IMG/VR virus record: IMGVR_UViG_3300031902_000007
Span: 1 to 62,118 of that record
Reading direction: 5' to 3' (one strand)
Source of the DNA: a virus
Length of the DNA: 62,118 bases
Below are positions 14,899 through 58,608 of the stretch, piece by piece (the first letter of the stretch is position 1; every line of letters begins with the position of its first letter). The notes beneath the pieces are model-generated. The model made no database searches and had not been told where the DNA came from. It saw only the letters and a program-made list of their open reading frames with translations. A program made the position numbers and the translations under genes.

Positions 14899-16464
14899 AT
14901 GGGCGATGCAGCCATCTCGCTAGAGGCCGTCCGCCAATCTCCGCAGTACCAGGCGGCGAAGGAAAAGCTCGCCGATCGCGAGTGGCGGCTCGACAACCTC
15001 TACTGGATCAAGAACGAAGACGGCATAGCGATCCCGTTCAAGCGGAACGAGGCCCAACTTTATTACTCCAAGCGAGAATGGTACCGCGATACGATCCTGA
15101 AATCACGGAAGGTTGGGTTTTCCACCCTGATCGCGATCGAGATGCTGGACGCCTGCCTATTCGCGTCGAACACGATCGCCGGCATCATTGACAGGACAGT
15201 AGACGACGCGACGAGCAAGCTATCGCTGTGCAAGTTCGCCTATGACCGGCTACCGCAGACGCTCAAGGACGCCAACCCGCTGGTTCGGGACAATCAGAGC
15301 GAACTCGCCTGGGCGAATGGGTCCAAGATCATCGCCGGCACGTCCTACCGCGGCGACACGCCCCAATACCTATGGGTGTCGGAATATGGTATCATCAGCG
15401 CGAAGAATCCGGACGCCGCCAAGGAAATCAAGACGGGCTCGTTCAAGTCGGTGCCCAAGCGAGGGAAGATCTGGGTTGAGAGCACGCCCATGGGGACGTC
15501 GGGCGAGTTCTACGATCTGGTGAAGGCCGGCGAGCAGCTTGCGGCGACGGGCCAGCAACTGACCGAGTACGACTTCAAGCTCCACTTCTTCGGCTGGCAT
15601 CAGAAGGCCGGCAACCGTCTCCCGATCAACCTCGTACATATTCCGGCCGAGATGCGCGAGTATTTCGAGGAACTGCGGATCAAGCATGGGATCGTGACGG
15701 ACGGCCTGCAGCAGGCTTGGTACGTCAAGCAGCGGGAAATCCTGGGCCCGGACGACATCAAGTCGGAAGAACCGAGCACGATTGATGAGTGTTTCTTCGC
15801 CAGCCTTGAGGGCGCCTATTTCAAGACCGAAATGAACCAGGCGCGGCGCGACGGCCGGATCGGCAAGCCGGTCCCCTACGACGACACGCGGCCGGTCCAC
15901 ACGTTCTGGGACCTCGGCATGGACGGGAATATGGCGATCGGCTTTCTTCAGAGCGATGGCGTTCGGCACCGGGCCATAGATTTCGCCCGGGGAGAAGGTT
16001 CGGGCCTGTCCGATGGCATCCGCATTCTGAGGGAAAAGAGCACGACCAGGGGTTTCAAGTACGGCAAGCACTATGGGCCACACGATCTGCAAACGCGCGA
16101 CTGGTCGAATATGAGCGGCGTCACGGCCCAAACCCGCAAGGAGGTCGCCGCGGAGCACGGGGTAGACTTCATCGTGATCGAGCGCGTGGGCGACAAGGCC
16201 GATTCGATCGAGGCCGGGCGCCGGCTGATCAACTCGACATGGTTTTGCTCGGAGTATGCTGGTGACCTCGTGGAGTGTCTGGATAACTACAGCAAGGCCT
16301 GGAACAAAATCCTTTCCCAATGGATGGCGACGCCAGCCAAGAACGGTTTCGACCACGGCGCCGACGCTTGGCAGCAGATCGCGATGGGAATTATTCCAGA
16401 TGTAATTCACAGAAAGGACATGCTAGGCTCTGGCAAGCGCAAGGGTAGCCACTGGAGCACATAA
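14899..16464 (+). CDS. terL: Terminase large subunit
   Basis: A 521-residue packaging motor. A Walker-A-like KSRKVGFST (about 69-76) lies after the adenine-binding region, the Walker-B-like QYLWVSEYG is at 157-164, and the coupling motif IWVESTPMG at 191-199. The C-terminal RNase-H-like nuclease begins at HTFWDLGMDGN (about 335-344) and has a late acidic FDHGADAW (about 486-493). The protein pumps DNA into the prohead through the portal and cuts concatemers. The stop overlaps an HNH homing endonuclease gene. Confidence 0.95.
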   Translation: MGDAAISLEAVRQSPQYQAAKEKLADREWRLDNLYWIKNEDGIAIPFKRNEAQLYYSKREWYRDTILKSRKVGFSTLIAIEMLDACLFASNTIAGIIDRTVDDATSKLSLCKFAYDRLPQTLKDANPLVRDNQSELAWANGSKIIAGTSYRGDTPQYLWVSEYGIISAKNPDAAKEIKTGSFKSVPKRGKIWVESTPMGTSGEFYDLVKAGEQLAATGQQLTEYDFKLHFFGWHQKAGNRLPINLVHIPAEMREYFEELRIKHGIVTDGLQQAWYVKQREILGPDDIKSEEPSTIDECFFASLEGAYFKTEMNQARRDGRIGKPVPYDDTRPVHTFWDLGMDGNMAIGFLQSDGVRHRAIDFARGEGSGLSDGIRILREKSTTRGFKYGKHYGPHDLQTRDWSNMSGVTAQTRKEVAAEHGVDFIVIERVGDKADSIEAGRRLINSTWFCSEYAGDLVECLDNYSKAWNKILSQWMATPAKNGFDHGADAWQQIAMGIIPDVIHRKDMLGSGKRKGSHWST

Positions 16465-25122: not shown

Positions 25123-25198
25123 CGCGGGATAGCCAAGTGGTTAAGGCATCCGGCCCATAACCGGAAGATCAGCGGTTCGATTCCGCTTCCCGCAACCA
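25123..25198 (+). tRNA. tRNA-Met (anticodon CAU), atypical
   Basis: 76 nt form a full cloverleaf. The acceptor CGCGGGA/TCCCGCA has only the first pair unmatched (C1-A72). The D stem is GCC/GGC, the anticodon stem TCCGG/CCGGA with loop CCCATAA (CAT at 25156-25158), and the T stem AGCGG/CCGCT with TTCGATT; A73 and CCA are encoded. C1-A72 is a hallmark of bacterial initiator tRNA, but the D stem looks elongator-like and position 33 is C, not the near-universal U. It could be elongator Met, Ile2 (modified CAU) or an initiator-like molecule. It sits between a terminator and a promoter. Confidence 0.9.
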
Positions 25199-46852: not shown

Positions 46853-47134
46853 CTATCGGTTCACGTCTTCGTCCGGAACCTCGGACAGCTTCGCCTCAAG
46901 TTCCGGCGGCCAGGAATCCGGCAGGCCGTGGATGTCGAACATGTACGCCAGCTTCGCGATCCTGAGCGGGATAGGCTTTCGGCCGTCCTCGTATGATCGG
47001 ATGGTGTTGTTGTTGGTTCGGCGGCTGCCTTCATAGCCGAGCTCGATCGCGAACTCGTCGAGGGACAGGCCGAGTTTCTGGCGAATCCGCCGGAACTCAG
47101 CCTTTGACATGGTCTCTCGACTGTCGTGGTTCAT
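46853..47134 (-). CDS. XRE-family HTH regulator
   Basis: The ATG at 47134 overlaps the preceding stop. The 93 residues include FRRIRQKLGLSLDEFAIELGYEGSRRTNNNTIRSYEDGRKPIP, a Cro/CI-type HTH with an unusual insertion before the recognition helix. It is a likely repressor. Its neighbours encode the HerA-like ATPase and small proteins. Confidence 0.75.
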   Translation of the reverse strand: MNHDSRETMSKAEFRRIRQKLGLSLDEFAIELGYEGSRRTNNNTIRSYEDGRKPIPLRIAKLAYMFDIHGLPDSWPPELEAKLSEVPDEDVNR

Positions 47135-48819
47135 CGCAGCACCTCGCGCGCCCAATCTGATAAGCCAAGCCGTCCGGTTCCTGTCCGATGCAGGACATCC
47201 ATGCTGCTGAGTGACCCGGCAATGTTGTTGAAGTTGCCAGACCCGGGAGAATATCCGGCGTTCGTAGCAAGATCGTCGCGCGCCAGATCGCCGGATGCCT
47301 GCAATGCCGCCTCAACAAGGCGTTTTTGTGGGTTCTCAAAAACAGACCAAAGCTTGTCTTTGGCCTCGCTCAGCGAGATCCCCTCAAACTCGACATTGAG
47401 CGCCAGCCGGCCGGGGCTTGGAACGATGGTCTGCCCCATCGTACCAAGGCCGCCGATGATGTTGTTGAAGTTGCCGGAACCTGGCCGATAGCCGGCGACC
47501 GCGGCGACCTGCTCGCGCGTCGGTGCCTCGTGACCGATCGATTTCCAGAAGGCCAGAGAGTTCATCACCCGCCGCTGTGGCATCGTCAGGCCATCCGCTG
47601 GCGCTTCGGCCGGCGCCCGCACAGGATGGGCCGCAGGAGGCCGCACAGGCGTCACGGCGCGAGCGGCGGCGAAGGCTGGCGGCGCCTGCTTGGACCAATG
47701 CTCGAGTTGGGCAGCCGCGCCCCTGGCGTTCTCCAGCGCCTTAATGACCGTCGCCGATTCCGTTGTCACCGCGCGGATTGCGTCGGCATAGCCGTCCGTC
47801 TTGCCGCGCGCATAGGCCGCCGCTTCGGCCTGCCGAACGGCATCCTGATCCACGCCGTTTGCCTTCGGCTTCGCTGCAATCTCACGCTTGAGACTGGCGA
47901 TCTCGGCTTTGAGAGCATTCGGATCGTTGGCCTTGGTCTCGGCTTCGATCGTCGAAAGCCGCTCCTTCAGCTTGCCGAGGTCAAGCGGTTTGAGTTCCGC
48001 CGTCCGCTTGGACTCGCCGCGCCTCGGCGTGCGCGAGGAATCGAAAGTCTGCTTTTCCGGAAACGACGCCGTCTCCAAGATGCCGCGGCCGGGCACCCAA
48101 ACCACGCCCTGGCCACGCTGCATCGATGGTAGGGACGCGAGGATGGCCTTGCCCTCCTGCTGGTCGGCCTGCCCCTCGATCCATGCACCGATCGCCGCGC
48201 GGTCCTGAGAGGCCGTCAGCTTGAACGCGATCATGCCGTCAGCCTGACTGAGGACGTCCTTCGAAAGCACTGCCGGCCGCTGGGTAATGAGCCACGGGAT
48301 GAAGCCGCGCACCCGGCCCCGCCGAACCACGGTCTCCATCATACCGAGCAACTTCGCGGCCTCGCCGTCCTTGTCAAGCAGGCGTTGCGGAGCGAACATA
48401 TCGGCCTCATCGACGACCAGATGCAGCGGCTCGCCGGCCGACTTGCGATAGAGCGCGGTCAGGAACGCCAGCATGAACCGGCGCTCGCCGGCTTTGGTCC
48501 CGATCTGGCTCAGGTCGATGATGCAGCTCTCGGCCATCGCGGCGACGGTCTCACCGATCAGTGATCCAGCGTGCTCGTTGATGGCGATGTCGCCATGCGG
48601 TCCGCCGAAGATCACGACGTTGAACGGCGACTCCGTTTTGCCATCCGGCCGCAGCCGCAGCCCCCACCACACGCCGAGCGGATCGGTAATGACCACACGC
48701 GCCTTGCGTGCCAAAAGCATTTCGACGCCGCTGCCAGCATTGTATGTCTTGCCGCTGCCGGCTGTGCCGACAAATGCGAGCCGGTCGTCAAGAGCAGCTT
48801 TCGGTATCGGATAGGTCAT
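47131..48819 (-). CDS. HerA-like ATPase with tandem winged-helix C terminus
   Basis: A 562-residue protein. Walker A GTAGSGKT (18-25) and Walker B LHLVVDEADMF (132-142) lie in a HerA/FtsK-type core (VITDPLGVWWGLRLRP, IIDLSQIGT, WLITQRP). A coiled coil (about 275-330) is followed by two near-identical winged-helix units, each with GYxPGSGNFNNI (about 433-467 and 515-549). HerA relatives translocate DNA in end processing, packaging or defence. The double recognition domain suggests site-specific loading. Partner nuclease not seen next to it. Confidence 0.75.
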   Translation of the reverse strand: MTYPIPKAALDDRLAFVGTAGSGKTYNAGSGVEMLLARKARVVITDPLGVWWGLRLRPDGKTESPFNVVIFGGPHGDIAINEHAGSLIGETVAAMAESCIIDLSQIGTKAGERRFMLAFLTALYRKSAGEPLHLVVDEADMFAPQRLLDKDGEAAKLLGMMETVVRRGRVRGFIPWLITQRPAVLSKDVLSQADGMIAFKLTASQDRAAIGAWIEGQADQQEGKAILASLPSMQRGQGVVWVPGRGILETASFPEKQTFDSSRTPRRGESKRTAELKPLDLGKLKERLSTIEAETKANDPNALKAEIASLKREIAAKPKANGVDQDAVRQAEAAAYARGKTDGYADAIRAVTTESATVIKALENARGAAAQLEHWSKQAPPAFAAARAVTPVRPPAAHPVRAPAEAPADGLTMPQRRVMNSLAFWKSIGHEAPTREQVAAVAGYRPGSGNFNNIIGGLGTMGQTIVPSPGRLALNVEFEGISLSEAKDKLWSVFENPQKRLVEAALQASGDLARDDLATNAGYSPGSGNFNNIAGSLSSMDVLHRTGTGRLGLSDWAREVLR

Positions 48820-50524: not shown

Positions 50525-50609
50525 CTCGTTTCCTTTCGGCGTGCCAGTTTGGCCACGTCCTCAACCTAATCCCTCCATGGGCCATGTCAACTATTATTTT
50601 TACAGAAAC
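50525..50609 (-). promoter_or_regulatory. Conserved promoter and hairpin leader, copy 1
   Basis: On the - strand: an AT-rich box (GTAAAAATAATAG), TTGACA (complement of 50585-50590), 28 bases, then GTGGCCAAACTGGCAC (50541-50556), GCCGAAAGGAAACGA and ATG. The GTG-g-CCA-AAC-TGG-CAC part forms a small hairpin. The + strand copy at 59904-59983 keeps all distances and changes one pair of the stem compensatorily. Confidence 0.65.
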
Positions 50610-51148
50610 GTGGATTGCTGCGGCGGGCGGGGACCGAGGAACCCGGGCGATTCGGGAGATGGTCCGTAGGCCGGATTCCAGTTGCTGGTCCGCTGGTAAA
50701 TCGCGAGGATCGGCCGCCATTCCTCCGGGGTCAGCTTCCGGGGATCGACGCCAGAGGCTCCGGACGGGCTGGGCGGCCGTGGCGCGGCCCCCAGGCGATC
50801 CGCCGTCGACCGCACCCAGTTGCGCCAGGTGGCGGGCCAGTCCGCCTTGACGCCGTCCTTACCGGCCTTCGCCGACCAGAAATCCCGGAACCGCTCGGCC
50901 TCGCGCACGGCCTGCTTTGAGTTGAGGCCCTGGACCAGAGCATAGGCGAGATCGCAAACGAAATCCGCCGGGAGCCGCGTGGCTCGGTTCGGCGGATCGG
51001 GGACCAGATCCAATTGCTTCGGCTTCCGTTTCGCCGGGCCGGTCGATGCCGCCCCGGCTGCGAACGCCTTGGCGACCACGTCGCTTGCATCCGATATCGA
51101 AACCCCAAGCCCTACCAGCCGCTCGACCAGCCCGCCGATGTCGCTCAT
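50600..51148 (-). CDS. Helicase-loader/DnaT-like replication protein (candidate)
   Basis: A 182-residue protein. The middle (ADFVCDLAYALVQGLNSKQAVREAERFRDFWSAKAGKDGVKADWPATWRNWVRSTADRLG) has the F..FW....GK...K.DW..TW.NW signature found in C-terminal parts of phage replication initiators and DnaT-like loaders. The rest is Pro-rich. It may bring the DnaB-type helicase (52287-53699) to DNA. Confidence 0.6.
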   Translation of the reverse strand: MSDIGGLVERLVGLGVSISDASDVVAKAFAAGAASTGPAKRKPKQLDLVPDPPNRATRLPADFVCDLAYALVQGLNSKQAVREAERFRDFWSAKAGKDGVKADWPATWRNWVRSTADRLGAAPRPPSPSGASGVDPRKLTPEEWRPILAIYQRTSNWNPAYGPSPESPGFLGPRPPQQSTFL

Positions 51149-52002: not shown

Positions 52003-52306
52003 AAATCCCCGCCGCGCTTTCGATCGCCTGATGCTTGTATCGTTCCCATAACCGGTCAAGGATGCGCGCCAATCGCACGCCCTCCAACCGCAGCGGCGAT
52101 CCCCCCGGATGATCCCAATATTCCAACCCACCAAGGTTTCGGCGGTACCGACGGAAAAGGCGGCGATAGCGCAGGCGGAGTGTTTTGGAGGCCATCCGCC
52201 CATGCTTCCCGCAGATGATCTCGCTGCACCCGGGAAACTTGTCTCGCGGAGCGGTGCGCCGGCAGAACGGGACGCAACATCGGATTCTAGAATGCGAGTT
52301 GTTCAT
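51998..52306 (-). CDS. Small Cys/Arg-rich protein in a repeat-flanked cassette
   Basis: The ATG at 52306 gives 102 residues. It starts with the same MNNSHSR as the methyltransferase because both starts lie in the 21-bp repeat. IRCCVPFCRRTAPRDKFPGCSEIICGKHGRM provides a Cys4/His metal site like small HNH or zinc-finger proteins; the rest is very Arg-rich (RLRYRRLFRRYRRN). It probably binds nucleic acid. Confidence 0.6.
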   Translation of the reverse strand: MNNSHSRIRCCVPFCRRTAPRDKFPGCSEIICGKHGRMASKTLRLRYRRLFRRYRRNLGGLEYWDHPGGSPLRLEGVRLARILDRLWERYKHQAIESAAGIS

Positions 52307-52307
52307 G
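52287..52307. repeat. 21-bp direct repeat, copy 2 (pair at 51982-52002)
   Basis: Perfect copy of 51982-52002. It spans the last codons and stop of the DnaB-type gene and the start codon of the small Cys/Arg-rich gene on the - strand. Confidence 0.9.
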
Positions 52308-53699
52308 CATCGCCTCACTGCGCTGCTCGATCTCGTAATCGCTGTTCCGCACTGCGTTCGACGCGATGTCACAGTAAACCTCGATTGTCCCGATGGGACC
52401 CATGCGGTTTTTCTCAACGATCAGCATCAGCTTATTGAAGCACCGCGTCATGGCCTCCTGCCACACGACATGCTCGGCGGTGCCGATCGGCGGTTCTTTC
52501 CGCTCGAGGTAATAGGCCTCGCGGTAAACCATGATAATCACGTCCGCGTCTTGCTCGATGTTTCCCGAATCTCGAAGGTCTCCCATGTTCGGCCGCTTGT
52601 CCTCCCGGCCCTCAACGCCGCGCGAGAGCTGCGAGAGCACGAGGGCGGCGCAATCCAGTTCCTTGGCCAGCGCGCGGAGCCCCGATGTCAGGTCGCCGAT
52701 CTCCAAATTCCGGTTTCCTTTGTACCGGGCCGGCGCTTCCATCAGCCCCAGGTAATCGACGATGAAGAAATCCAGCCCGCGCCGCCGCTTCTCCTGCCGG
52801 GCCCGGGCGCCAAGCATAGCCAGAGTCATCTTGGGCTGCTGCTCGATCCGGAGCGGCAGGCCGCGCAGCCGCAGCGCCGCGTCGCGGATCGCGGTGAAGT
52901 CTGCCTCGGTGAACCGGCCCGACCGCAGCTTGGTGTACTGGACCTTGGCCCGATCGTAGGCCTCATCCGTAATCATGCGCTGCGACAGCGCCACGTCGCC
53001 CATCTCAAGCGAGTAGAAAATCCCCTTGTGCCCGGCCGAGGCCATGGCGCGGGAAATTCCAAGCGCGACCCCGGATTTTCCACTCCCGGGGCGCCCTGCG
53101 AGGATGGCGAGTTCCCCCCGTTGCAGGCCGAGCAGCTTCCGGTCAAGATCCCGCAGCCCGGTCGTCAGACCTGACAGCATCCCATCGCGCTGGTAGGCAT
53201 GGGCCGCAGCATCGACCGCTCGAGCAATGGACTGGTCCAAGGTGAGGGACGGAACCGCCGAACCGACGCGCGCCGCCGCGATCTTGTCCAGCTCGTCGAT
53301 GCCCCAAGACGCCAGTTCGGCAGGGTCCGGAGCTTTCGCGGTCAGGAGCTGGTTTCCCACGGCGGAAACGGCCCGCCGGTGCGCCAGGTCGCGGACCATG
53401 GCGGCAAGGTCCGCCGCCTCCCCCACCGTACAGGCGGCCGCGGCAAGCCGCGCGAGGTACTGTTTTAGGTTCACCCCCGGCGCGATCTCCATTTCGGACG
53501 GCAGGAACGGAACCACGGTCAACGGGCTGGCCAGCTTCCCCATCGAGATCAGAGATTCGCAGACCTCGAAAATCTCACCGTGCACGGGCTCGAAGAAATC
53601 ATCCCGACCCATCCGCGCCGAGATAAGGGCGAATAGGTCGTTCTTTATCAGCACGGCGCCGAGGATCGCCTGTTCTGCCTCTGTCGAATCGGTCCTCAT
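52287..53699 (-). CDS. dnaB: Replicative DNA helicase, DnaB type
   Basis: A 470-residue protein. The N-terminal helical domain (EAEQAILGAVLIKNDLF.., FFEPVHGEIFEVCESL) joins a RecA-like core with Walker A GRPGSGKS (202-209), FYSLEMGDVALSQRM, Walker B LDFFIVDYLGLM (309-320) and LSQLSRGVEGR. It unwinds DNA at the fork as a hexamer. With no phage polymerase in view, it probably recruits the host replisome. Its last codons lie in the 21-bp repeat. Confidence 0.95.
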   Translation of the reverse strand: MRTDSTEAEQAILGAVLIKNDLFALISARMGRDDFFEPVHGEIFEVCESLISMGKLASPLTVVPFLPSEMEIAPGVNLKQYLARLAAAACTVGEAADLAAMVRDLAHRRAVSAVGNQLLTAKAPDPAELASWGIDELDKIAAARVGSAVPSLTLDQSIARAVDAAAHAYQRDGMLSGLTTGLRDLDRKLLGLQRGELAILAGRPGSGKSGVALGISRAMASAGHKGIFYSLEMGDVALSQRMITDEAYDRAKVQYTKLRSGRFTEADFTAIRDAALRLRGLPLRIEQQPKMTLAMLGARARQEKRRRGLDFFIVDYLGLMEAPARYKGNRNLEIGDLTSGLRALAKELDCAALVLSQLSRGVEGREDKRPNMGDLRDSGNIEQDADVIIMVYREAYYLERKEPPIGTAEHVVWQEAMTRCFNKLMLIVEKNRMGPIGTIEVYCDIASNAVRNSDYEIEQRSEAMHEQLAF

Positions 53700-54813: not shown

Positions 54814-55824
54814 TTATTCGGCAGCTTGGAGGTCAGGAAACGGATCGGCGTCAGACCCCCCAAGTTCGAGGGACCCTTGTTCTTCCTCTTTGCGGCCCTC
54901 GTAGGCGACCTGAATGTTCTTGATGGCCTGCCGATAGTAGGAGGGCTTCAACTCAATGCCGATGCCGCGGCGCCCATTCTGCAGAGCGCCGTAGACCTCC
55001 GACCCCACGCCCATAAATGGCGTAAGCACGGTTTCTCCCGGGCTGCTCCAAAGCGTGATGACCCGATCGATGACATCAAGCTGCAGCGCGTGGACATGCT
55101 TCTCGTCCTCGTCATCCTTGGCCTGACGGAACGGCAGCACGCGACCAATGCGAACGTCATCCCAAAATGCAGAGGCGTACTGTCGCCAGATCCAATGAGA
55201 ATACCTGTTCTCGATCTGGTTTCCAGTCCAACCGCGGTACTTCAAGAGTTCGGCTGGGATCTTGCGTTCGCCGGCATATTCCAAAAGCCCGACCGGGTGA
55301 GTGATCGGAATTTTGTTCTCGCCGTTGCGGCGGAACACCAGCAAGTAATCGGCAGACGCAACGCCACACCGCGAACTATCCTCGACCAAGGACCGATGTG
55401 CCAGGTTCTTCGCCATCGTTCGATTTCGAACCGCCAGAGGCTCTTTCCAAACCGCATAGCGCGCCTTGAACTTCCACCCATGCTTTTCGTGCAGCCGGAT
55501 GATATCACCCGGGAAGTCTGTCAGGGTGTCGTCTCCGGTGTTGCCAGATGGAACATCCATGCAATGAACGGCCGTCATCCGCCCTGGATGGGTGACGCGG
55601 GCGAGTTCCTTCACCACGAAGGAATAGTGCTCGAAAAACTGATCGTAGTCCGTGCAGTTGGAAAGGTCTCGTTCCGAGCTGCTGTAGCAGAACAATCCGC
55701 CGAACGGCGGCGAATAAACGGACAGATGGATCGACTTGGACGGCAGCGCCGTCATGACCTCGATGCAATCGGCATTGTAAGCCGCGTACCTGTCGGTCAA
55801 CTTCTGTTCGACGATTAAAGCCAT
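54814..55824 (-). CDS. Site-specific DNA methyltransferase, beta class
   Basis: The ATG at 55824 gives 336 residues. Catalytic motif IV SPPF (38-41) comes first and the SAM-binding motif (VLTPFMGVGSEVYGAL, about 268-283) last, the order of beta-class N4-cytosine or N6-adenine enzymes. It overlaps the SNF2-like helicase gene by 10 bases. I see no nuclease, so it protects phage DNA or forms part of a modification-plus-helicase pair. Confidence 0.85.
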   Translation of the reverse strand: MALIVEQKLTDRYAAYNADCIEVMTALPSKSIHLSVYSPPFGGLFCYSSSERDLSNCTDYDQFFEHYSFVVKELARVTHPGRMTAVHCMDVPSGNTGDDTLTDFPGDIIRLHEKHGWKFKARYAVWKEPLAVRNRTMAKNLAHRSLVEDSSRCGVASADYLLVFRRNGENKIPITHPVGLLEYAGERKIPAELLKYRGWTGNQIENRYSHWIWRQYASAFWDDVRIGRVLPFRQAKDDEDEKHVHALQLDVIDRVITLWSSPGETVLTPFMGVGSEVYGALQNGRRGIGIELKPSYYRQAIKNIQVAYEGRKEEEQGSLELGGSDADPFPDLQAAE

Positions 55825-57212
55825 GATGGGATGCCTTCTTGGTTGGTAAACTTCATGCTGCGTTCGATGTTGAGTCCGCCGTTCATATGGCGGATGAGGT
55901 CCGAGAACATCTTGTCCGCGGCAACTCCCTTGCGTTGCAGGTTGACAAGAACGTCCTTCTCGCCCTCGGTCGTGACGATGTCCGAAATCACTTGGCGCGT
56001 CTGACCAAACCGCCAGCACCTACGGATGCTCTGATAGTAACCCTCATAGCTGTGCGTCGGGAAGGAAACCGAATGGGCGCAGTGCTGGAAATTGAGGCCC
56101 CATGCACCAATTTTTTCCTTAGTGATTAGCCCGCGCTTCTGACCGCGGATAAAGGCCAAAAACTTCGCCTCTTTGGTATCGTCCTCATCCTTTCCGCTGA
56201 CCTGGACAGCATCAGGGATAAGCTTTTCAAGCAGATCGCCCTCGTCATTGAGAGAGCACCACACGATGAAGGGCTGGCCCGTGCCGTTGACCAGTTCTGC
56301 CGCCTTCTCGCACCGCTCTCGCAAGGTCCGGCGCCGCTCCTCTCGCTGCTCGCTCAACCCAAACGCAGGAAGAGCGAACAACATTCCATCGGGATTGGTC
56401 GTAGCCTCAACCAGATGCTGCCGCTCGATCAGCGGAGGCAAATCATAGTCCCCGTTGTCGAACCCCAGATCGGAAGGCTTCCGAACCGCACGAGCCCACG
56501 AGCAAACCCATTTCCAGAACGGTTCCTCCGCATGGCCCTTGAAGCGCCACTTGGCGCTGTCGTCCAACTGATCAAATTTCGCGCCCTTGTGCCGGAAGAT
56601 CGCCGGCTTGATCGAATTCCCTTGGTTGTTTTTGAAGAACCTCGCCAGCATATCCATGTAGCCAAGATAGCCCAAGGCCTCGCTGCTGGTGCCGAGTTCG
56701 ATATATTCGTTGGGGCTCGGGGTCGCCGTGCAGAGCAGCCGGTATTTCATCTTCCGCATGAATTCGGTGATCTGCTGCCGGCGAACGCCGTCAAAGGATT
56801 TCAAGATTGCCGATTCGTCGCAGACCATTCCGGCAAAGTCGTGCGGGCTGAACAGATGGAGTTTTTCGTAGTTGGCGATATTGATGCCGGGGTGCGGCAT
56901 CCCTGTCTTGGATATCGAACATTCAATCCCGAACTTTTTGCCCTCCCGCATCGTCTGGCTCCCGACAGCCAGCGGCGTGAGGATCAGCACAGGCCTGTTC
57001 TCGTGCCGAACGATGTTCTCGGCCCAGGTCAATTGCATCAACGTTTTGCCGAGGCCGGTATCTGCGAACAGTGCCCCGCGGCCTTTGAGTAACGCCCACT
57101 CGACCAAGGATCTTTGAAAATCAAACATTCCGGGCGGGAAAAACTTCCCCTCGAATCCATCGTAGCTGCCGAGTTGCGTTTTCTTGCCTAGAAAATCCTC
57201 GTATTTACCCAT
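55815..57212 (-). CDS. SF2 (SNF2-like) helicase
   Basis: The ATG at 57212 gives 465 residues. Walker A ADTGLGKT (50-57), DESA (132-135) in place of DEAH, CTATPSPN (161-168) and an arginine-finger motif SIRRCWRFGQ near residue 410 are in SNF2/SF2 order. Such phage helicases are often next to a methyltransferase. Possible roles are replication start, fork remodelling or translocation for the methylase. Confidence 0.88.
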   Translation of the reverse strand: MGKYEDFLGKKTQLGSYDGFEGKFFPPGMFDFQRSLVEWALLKGRGALFADTGLGKTLMQLTWAENIVRHENRPVLILTPLAVGSQTMREGKKFGIECSISKTGMPHPGINIANYEKLHLFSPHDFAGMVCDESAILKSFDGVRRQQITEFMRKMKYRLLCTATPSPNEYIELGTSSEALGYLGYMDMLARFFKNNQGNSIKPAIFRHKGAKFDQLDDSAKWRFKGHAEEPFWKWVCSWARAVRKPSDLGFDNGDYDLPPLIERQHLVEATTNPDGMLFALPAFGLSEQREERRRTLRERCEKAAELVNGTGQPFIVWCSLNDEGDLLEKLIPDAVQVSGKDEDDTKEAKFLAFIRGQKRGLITKEKIGAWGLNFQHCAHSVSFPTHSYEGYYQSIRRCWRFGQTRQVISDIVTTEGEKDVLVNLQRKGVAADKMFSDLIRHMNGGLNIERSMKFTNQEGIPSWL

Positions 57213-57537
57213 GGGATGCGACCTTCTCGACATGGTATCCATGTCCTGTTGCATCGACCGTCCATTCCCGCGAGCGGTTGATTGCCATTTTGCGGTCGAC
57301 CTCAGCCATCAGGCTGTAACCCATCCGCGATGCTAGAACGAAGAGTAGGATAACCACATCGGCCGCCTCTTGGATCGCGTGGGCACTCTTGTCGTTCTCT
57401 GCAAGATCGCGGAGCAATTCGCTCATTTCTTGGTTGGCACGCACCGCCGTGCTCATGTTTGAGGGTTGTGCAGTCCCGAAAGTCTGCACCGCCCATCGGC
57501 TTATCGTCGCTTGTGTTTCGATCATCTGTTTTTCCAT
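57205..57537 (-). CDS. MazG-like nucleotide pyrophosphohydrolase
   Basis: A 110-residue protein. NQEMSELLRDLAENDKSAHAIQEAADVVILLFVLA.. has the ExxE..12..ExxD metal pattern of all-alpha NTP pyrophosphohydrolases, close to the dATP/dGTP diphosphohydrolase (DUF550) group. It could adjust the dNTP pool or (p)ppGpp. Relatives called MazZ occur in 2-aminoadenine phages, but no PurZ-like gene is present here. Confidence 0.78.
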   Translation of the reverse strand: MEKQMIETQATISRWAVQTFGTAQPSNMSTAVRANQEMSELLRDLAENDKSAHAIQEAADVVILLFVLASRMGYSLMAEVDRKMAINRSREWTVDATGHGYHVEKVASHG

Positions 57538-57642
57538 CTGGTTGCCTCGCGCGTAACCCTAACCCTTACTTTCTTCCTTGTTGGCAGACCTCTTATGTCC
57601 TTCTTTCTTAAAGACAAAAAAAGTCCTGTAGAGCCCTCCGCA

Positions 57643-57659
57643 GCGCAAAATTGTTGCGC
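57643..57659. promoter_or_regulatory. Palindrome in the 57538-57899 intergenic region
   Basis: GCGCAA (57643-57648) and TTGCGC (57654-57659) with a 5-base centre could be an operator or initiator-binding site. The same gap has TAACCCTAACCC (57554-57565) near the MazG-like start and is AT-richer than neighbouring genes. No gene in 57538-57899 can be supported on either strand; a regulatory region or origin is possible. Confidence 0.35.
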
Positions 57660-57899
57660 GTCGGAACCTACATCAGGGCAGTCGGAATAGGCGCGTTTAC
57701 ACATCAGACCCGGTTATCGCGGCAGAAACCGGAAAACTGCCATTCCATATTCGTAGAGCTCATCCTGATGCTTATCGCAGTCTGCCGACCTCAGATTTTG
57801 CTAGGGCTAGGACTACGTGAGACCATCCCACGCCAAAAATACCCCGCGCCGTCGTTGCGCTGAAACCGATGAGGATTTGGCTGGTTGAGGTCAGGAGGG

Positions 57900-57928
57900 T
57901 TGACGAAAGAGCGATATCGGCCTAAATC
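57900..57928 (+). promoter_or_regulatory. Promoter of the candidate small RNA
   Basis: TTGACG (57900-57905), 17-bp spacer, TAAATC (57923-57928) on the + strand, opposite to all genes around it. The predicted start (about 57934) coincides with the first hairpin of the RNA. Confidence 0.5.
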
Positions 57929-57933
57929 AATAA

Positions 57934-58024
57934 CACGCCTTTGGCGTGCCCCCTGTCCGACCTCTGCCAAGATCATCGGACTTAGTTTTCGGCCCCGGCT
58001 TCAGCACCCGGGGCCGTTCTATTT
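57934..58024 (+). ncRNA. Candidate three-hairpin small RNA with intrinsic terminator
   Basis: Hairpin 1: CACGCC-TTT-GGCGTG (57934-57948). Hairpin 2: GTCCGA (57955-57960) with TCGGAC (57976-57981) around a 15-nt loop. Hairpin 3: CGGCCCCGG (57990-57998) with CCGGGGCCG (58008-58016) followed by TTCTATTT, an intrinsic terminator. All stems are perfect. It is about 91 nt, transcribed away from the flanking - strand genes, and has its own promoter. It resembles no RNA family I can name. Confidence 0.6.
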
Positions 58025-58110
58025 GTGGCTCAACGTCGTAAAATCGTCAAGGCCGAATAAAATCAACGGGTAGTGGTGCGACAGAGAAGCCAGTCTAGGG
58101 ATTGATCCTG

Positions 58111-58608
58111 TCACAGGAACCCGCGCCGCTCTTGCCCATACAGCCCCAACAAAACCGACTCGGCTCGGTTGTGATCGCGCTTCCGTCCCAGCCACGGCGC
58201 GGCGGCCGGAACCAGTTCCAGTGCCTTCTGTCGCGATTGTTCCTTGTCCGGCCCCTTGAGGCCATAGTACCGTTTCCAGACTTGGGGATGGATCAGCTTC
58301 ACCTGAAGCCCGTAGCAGACTGCAATGGCACGGATCTGCCCGACCGCGAACCCGAACCGGAACGAGCTCGCCGCCCCCATGCCGCGCCGGACGCCGTTGG
58401 CACCGGGAATAGACGGCATCGGCTGGACGTTCTCGATGATGGCGATCCGCGGCTTCCACTTGTCGATCCGCCTACAGATTGCCATCACGTCAAGCTGACG
58501 ATTCGATCCATCAGCAATCGTGGGGGTATCCAAGACCTCGACGATAACCCCGGCCCTCATGAAGCATAGGGCACCAGAAAGGCCGGGGTCACATGCCAGA
58601 AGGTCCAT
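58111..58608 (-). CDS. RuvC-like Holliday junction resolvase
   Basis: A 165-residue protein. Acidic residues are where RuvC needs them: Asp7 in CDPGLSGAL, Glu59 in AIIENVQPMP, and the late DHNRAES (about 145-151). GAASSFRFGFAVGQIRAIAVCYGLQVKLIHPQVWKR follows the RuvC/phage-resolvase order. It resolves branched DNA from RecT recombination before packaging. Confidence 0.88.
   Translation of the reverse strand: MDLLACDPGLSGALCFMRAGVIVEVLDTPTIADGSNRQLDVMAICRRIDKWKPRIAIIENVQPMPSIPGANGVRRGMGAASSFRFGFAVGQIRAIAVCYGLQVKLIHPQVWKRYYGLKGPDKEQSRQKALELVPAAAPWLGRKRDHNRAESVLLGLYGQERRGFL

Follow-up and report, generated by a model that had tools for sequence, protein, structure and literature searches.

A replication operon in the viral DNA analysed here is probably throttled by an antisense RNA together with promoter interference. 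The stretch analysed (62,118 nucleotides, hereafter the window) covers positions 1 to 62,118 of the IMG/VR virus record IMGVR_UViG_3300031902_000007, and all coordinates refer to it. The preliminary description of this DNA had claimed a non-coding, phage-encoded small RNA (sRNA) with its own promoter and terminator, and our sequence analysis supported this claim. The sRNA had also been called free-standing, which was not supported. It is one half of a face-to-face promoter pair, and the opposing promoter, P2, abuts its terminator on the minus strand (58022-58050). Since the sRNA is fully complementary to the leader of the transcript predicted from P2, it would most simply be a cis-encoded countertranscript and not an independent regulator.

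As far as sequence can tell, the sRNA promoter P1, the hairpin, the terminator and P2 are conserved, the complementarity is complete, the arrangement stands at the head of replication genes, and the group to which the window belongs (group A) can form a long leader stem-loop. We infer the firing of both promoters, the negative sign of the control and the shares that RNA pairing and promoter interference would have in it.

The sRNA and the two facing promoters

The gap that carries the sRNA was measured as 573 bp (57538-58110, about 570 bases in the earlier account), with minus-strand genes on both sides and no iteron-like repeats in it. The TTGACG-17-TAAATC promoter reported there was found on the plus strand (Table 1). 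P1-like sites (TTG[AC]C-17-TA) were rare, with just 2 in 62 kb on both strands, and the sRNA site alone was paired with P2. A generic sigma-70 scan did not list P1 in this region because its -10 box is poor by E. coli standards. The consensus of Caulobacter RpoD is TTGaCgS / GCtANAWC (PMC8144410), and P1 resembles it, although the host itself is not proven. The P1 -35 box lies within a TGTCA-N7-TGACA palindrome in L214, and partly so in L245, L133 and the window. This palindrome is a possible repressor operator, kept in some members only.

All three stems that had been described were present on the plus strand (57934-57948, 57955-57981 and 57990-58016), and the tail TTCTATTT followed the last one. 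The fold of 57930-58024 reached -40.1 kcal/mol versus -24.8 kcal/mol for dinucleotide shuffles (z -5.0, 0/200 as good). As the -10 box ends at 57928, the expected start of transcription falls near 57934-57936, within the 5' arm of hairpin 1, so this hairpin may be incompletely transcribed. Read on the minus strand, hairpin 1 looks like a weak terminator.

P2 was noticed when the cassettes of the relatives were aligned, as an opposite-strand TTGAC beyond the terminator. It was defined as TTGAC or TTGCC, a spacer of 16-18 nt and a -10 box with A at position 2. By this definition P2 was present in 14/14 non-redundant cassettes, whereas shuffling the 3' flank gave a mean of 0.17 and a maximum of 3 of 14 (2000 trials). 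The end of its -35 box lies 132-151 bp from where the P1 -35 box starts. In the window the transcript T2 was predicted to start at about 58014-58016 on the minus strand and to read through the sRNA, antisense to it, into the leftward operon. Judged by E. coli promoters, the -10 boxes of P2 are weak, which counts against the countertranscript reading.

Table 1. Positions of the RNA elements, promoters and flanking genes in the window.
Feature	Position	Strand	Basis
P1, sRNA promoter: TTGACG 57900-57905, 17 nt, TAAATC 57923-57928	57900..57928	+	sequence; TTGAC-17-TA in 14/14 cassettes
Predicted sRNA (countertranscript T1), about 75-90 nt	57935..58024	+	P1 plus terminator; CM R1
Hairpin 1, CACGCC-TTT-GGCGTG; lineage-specific insertion at predicted transcription start	57934..57948	+	no copy in relatives
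Conserved hairpin GTCCGA / TCGGAC, CCAAG-containing loop	57955..57981	+	7-sequence alignment
Intrinsic terminator CGGCCCCGG/CCGGGGCCG plus TTCTATTT	57990..58024	+	relatives: stem sequence varies, pairing kept
P2: TTGACG 58045-58050, 17 nt, CACAAA 58022-58027; overlaps end of sRNA terminator	58022..58050	-	14/14 cassettes
Leader region I, complement of sRNA hairpin	57946..57986	-	sequence
Leader region II, sRNA-like arm pairing with region I	57866..57895	-	window p 0.008
Candidate attenuator: hairpin, GGAC, T7; ~80 nt before MazG-like gene	57615..57672	-	fold, window only
RuvC-like Holliday junction resolvase, convergent neighbour	58111..58608	-	phrog_1770 E 2e-26
MazG-like pyrophosphohydrolase, first gene after P2	57205..57537	-	PF12643
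SNF2/DEAD-type helicase	55815..57254	-	phrog_62; PF00176 just under cut-off
DnaB-like replicative helicase	52287..53699	-	phrog_19 E 3e-87
Primosomal / replication initiation protein, end of run	50600..51148	-	phrog_3992 E 3e-14

Recurrence of the cassette in viral contigs

The cassette (P1, the 57955-57981 hairpin and the terminator) recurred in 13 other non-redundant viral contigs, which makes 14 cassettes in all, and the P1 spacer was exactly 17 nt in 14/14. Viral contigs were first fetched through their RuvC-like and helicase neighbours, and positions 57890-58040 were used as the nhmmer query. This query matched L001 (E 1e-4) and L026 (E 0.05), and a profile made from these first matches added L002 and L133. 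The model CM R1 was built without L002, with the linkers and loops of its training rows trimmed to equal length. It recovered the held-out L002 with 29.2 bits (E 3e-5; E-values of such purpose-built models are rough), found new copies in L246, L250 and, weakly, L248, and gave 90.7 bits for the window sRNA, which is itself a member of the model. These copies were mostly located directly downstream of a shared methyltransferase gene. A loose hairpin pattern run on the viral contigs gave matches that were mostly due to chance, but L133 was obtained with it. A strict pattern run on genome contigs gave 17 matches that resembled chance matches in coding sequence, with 0 followed by a terminator, and was discarded.

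Conservation of the stems in relatives had been set beforehand as a test, and the sRNA passed it, since the 57955-57981 hairpin and the terminator were kept. Hairpin 1 was missing from every relative, so the conserved RNA begins near 57950, with hairpin 1 inserted locally at the start site, and the name "three-hairpin" RNA was not supported. In the alignment of 7 sequences, the CCGA/TCGG stem showed double changes at 2 terminal pairs, with 95% of cells paired, and its covariation score was matched by 5/500 shuffles. The loop part GCCAAG was conserved in group A. A detector requiring P1, P2 and the terminator had no match in reversed sequence (2.9 Mb). When run on real sequence, its distinct matches with a terminator all belonged to the cassette set. 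The conserved block upstream was also considered as the C-terminus of a coding region and rejected, because no consistent reading frame was found across relatives.

A second group of cassettes (group B) was found by scanning both strands downstream of the methyltransferase gene at 53 loci for TTGAC-type promoters with spacers of 16-18 nt. The scan gave 9 matches, 9/9 antisense and 0 sense, all with a 17-nt spacer. Group B cassettes were chosen by position and P1, and P2 was no part of the selection. The contigs of this group among the matches (L294, L296/L297, L300 and L302) have another hairpin, CCAATCG-N6-CGATTGG, and behind it a GGCC-rich terminator. The models of the two groups matched each other weakly, and the position and promoter layout are the same; shared ancestry is not proven. 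A GC-rich hairpin was observed beside the start codon of the gene after P2 in L294, L297, L300, L302, L349 and L425, and this gene is dnaB in L294, L297, L300 and L349. In group B such a hairpin suggests control at the ribosome site.

Both CM R1 and CM R2 were run on 385 genomes of one alphaproteobacterial class, where no copy was recognised and there were terminator-like matches only; the inspected ones were without P1 and the core hairpin. No cassette was found in the regions examined of phages 16-3, PPF1, phi2LM21, phiLM21, DMCA, Ssp-JY42 and P12026. These named phages have related DnaB or methyltransferase genes, and the lack of a cassette in the examined regions counts against the countertranscript reading. 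Caulobacter or rhizobia are the hosts of several named phages that have related proteins. Together with the likeness of P1 to the Caulobacter RpoD consensus, this makes an alphaproteobacterial host likely, not proven.

The P2 leader and the genes behind it

Over its first ~80 nt, the predicted P2 transcript is exactly complementary to the sRNA. Pairing of leader regions I and II would close a long stem-loop that encloses the antisense of P1. Such a stem-loop, with 22-33 pairs across, was found in group A including the window. The region I/II pairing was better than that of shuffles in every group A member (p 0.002-0.03, Fisher 4e-10), and a member's own pairs were on average better than cross-species pairs (Wilcoxon p 0.004, indicative only as the sequences are related). 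In group B the stem-loop was absent, and own pairs did not surpass cross pairs (Wilcoxon p 0.95). One leader mechanism therefore does not cover all members. Farther along the leader, the terminator-like hairpin at 57615-57672 had a fold z of -2.6, with 3/200 shuffles as good, in the window only.

The adjacency to replication genes reported earlier was confirmed. The leftward run is nearly gap-free from 57537 to 50600 and contains the DnaB and MazG-like genes. Its order is MazG-like protein, SNF2/DEAD helicase, N6/N4 methyltransferase, two proteins, DnaB, methyltransferase and primosomal protein. In most relatives, as in the window, the predicted P2 operon encodes a DnaB helicase. Measured from the P1 -35 box, DnaB starts at +17 nt in L297, +30 in L300 and +31 in L294; it also lies after P2, farther on, in L226, L245, L133 and L302. 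An independent search by DnaB alignment gave two new cassettes, L349 and L425, before dnaB. A primase-like gene in L248 and a helicase in L214 take the place of DnaB after P2. In L250 no DnaB was found within the stretch examined, which counts against the countertranscript reading. In the window the distance from the P1 -35 box to the MazG start is 363 nt, so another promoter could serve the operon.

Some further genes were observed. The gene downstream of the cassette in L225 (666-3140, plus strand) encodes a DEAD-type helicase, and the same protein is found in L214. This helicase appears to carry an intein, as the motif GAGK is interrupted and resumes as ...TVTHNTKI. In the window, two ORFs, 14899-16464 (plus strand) and 47131-48819 (minus strand), gave matches to families of the terminase large subunit (phrog_2 and phrog_2666); the protein of the second may be of another kind. 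A tRNA-Met (CAT) gene (25123-25198, plus strand) lies alone in the structural gene region.

Proposed control of replication and known systems

In the mechanism that we consider probable, P1 would make a stable sRNA of ~75-90 nt ending at the intrinsic terminator, and P2 would initiate the leftward replication operon transcript. Pairing of the sRNA with the leader would keep the region I / region II stem-loop from closing and would favour RNase III cleavage, attenuation or blocked translation. At the same time, RNA polymerases from P1 and P2 would obstruct each other. In this way the synthesis of replication proteins would be under a self-limiting brake, or under a switch. More tentatively, and with somewhat more doubt than belief, we suggest that the cassettes, as compact pairs of facing promoters, may form an undescribed class of phage countertranscript elements. 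In these, sRNA and leader would change together with complementarity kept, and uncultivated phages would have their replicative helicase under copy control of the plasmid type or under a bistable early switch.

Regulation by convergent polymerases alone, as with lambda pO, with the RNA as a by-product, would also account for the face-to-face promoters, their conserved spacing and a terminator abutting the P2 -10 box, and activity of lambda pO is known to lower pR transcription (PMC3985674). We regard it as unlikely, since the hairpin kept by compensatory changes and the leader stem-loop kept in group A would not be needed for interference alone. An sRNA acting in trans, with P2 incidental, might use its CCAAG loop or unpaired stretches to pair with other host or phage mRNAs. 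That it has its own promoter and terminator, and that the loop is partly conserved in group A (GCCAAG), is compatible with this; yet all members have P2, and the different hairpin at the same place in group B better fits a cis RNA drifting with its target. Action in trans thus seems quite improbable.

It is very unlikely that the cassette works as DNA, with the inverted repeat flanking P1 as an origin or a protein-binding site that transcription primes or opens. Such an element would suit the location at replication genes, the inverted repeat conserved in group A and the palindrome at the P1 -35 box of some members. However, the gap is free of iteron-like repeats, L246, L250, L248 and L002 have not kept the palindrome, group B is without the inverted repeat, and the conservation of stem and terminator is RNA-like. 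We give hardly any credence to a mere insulator, in which back-to-back terminators and promoters part two operons without RNA regulation, for although a terminator does lie between RuvC and the next operon, its orientation is that of the antisense strand, and the conservation of P1 equals that of the terminator.

The cassette is recurrent and diverse in sequence, an antisense RNA and an opposing promoter heading helicase operons; it is small (about 150 bp) and predicts exact transcript ends. If the countertranscript reading is true, phages have adopted a plasmid-style RNA control of replication-protein dosage. The novelty, proposed earlier on condition that the RNA is in no known family, agreed with the Rfam search, in which no family reached its threshold: cmscan with 4227 families gave nothing convincing in the gap of the window at E values up to 5, and no ctRNA model. 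The cassettes of 7 relatives gave no match except a weak full-length one to anti-hemB RNA (RF02837) in L349 only (29.1 versus a gathering threshold of 49.5 bits), an RNA that likewise has a hairpin plus terminator shape. The phage C4 antisense RNA gave no Rfam model match in the window, if its model is among the families scanned. No earlier description of the cassette was found in the literature searched, which was open-access only; subscription journals may hold one.

For plasmids, control of replication by antisense RNA is a classical theme, and among phages lambda pO is the textbook example. In ColE1 RNAI, CopA/CopT, pT181 and pIP501 RNAIII, an antisense RNA has full complementarity with the leader or primer of replication, and the leader has competing folds. 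Unlike in these systems, whose homology with the cassette was examined through Rfam, the helicase operon of a phage would be controlled here.

The geometry of a countertranscript has experimental precedents. Activity of lambda pO/oop reduces transcription from pR and has an effect on replication (PMC3985674), and the repABC ctRNA makes a large stem-loop of the leader switch to a terminator (PMC3155836). The proposed function would resemble that of both. We claim membership in neither system, since an overlap with cII, neighbours as in repABC and Rfam matches were looked for and not found. As in lambda OOP/pO (PMC3985674, PMC12197685), a short terminated antisense RNA is predicted here, with its promoter just before a replication gene of the phage and directed away from that gene, toward the 3' end of the preceding one. 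The lambda RNA opposes the rightward replication transcript. Here, in contrast, a dedicated P2 abuts the sRNA terminator, so the target would be the 5' leader. There is also no cII overlap, as the sRNA is predicted to end at ~58024 and the RuvC stop (58111-58113) lies 87 nt beyond, with no cII identified, and the gene downstream is usually DnaB, not an O-type initiator.

Like the repABC ctRNA (p42d / pTi RepE; PMC3155836), the sRNA would be antisense to a replication-gene leader with a large stem-loop (here in group A and in silico), in a probably alphaproteobacterial setting. Unlike in repABC, the flanking genes include no repA, repB or repC, the neighbours of the sRNA being RuvC and MazG-like instead of repB/repC, and the operon is a phage replication operon with a conserved face-to-face P2. 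The RNA-based prophage origins of mycobacteriophages (PMC7157519) are another case of a non-coding phage RNA tied to replication. Those origins lie beside parABS and are needed for extrachromosomal replication, whereas the RNA described here would be antisense to the leader of a helicase operon.
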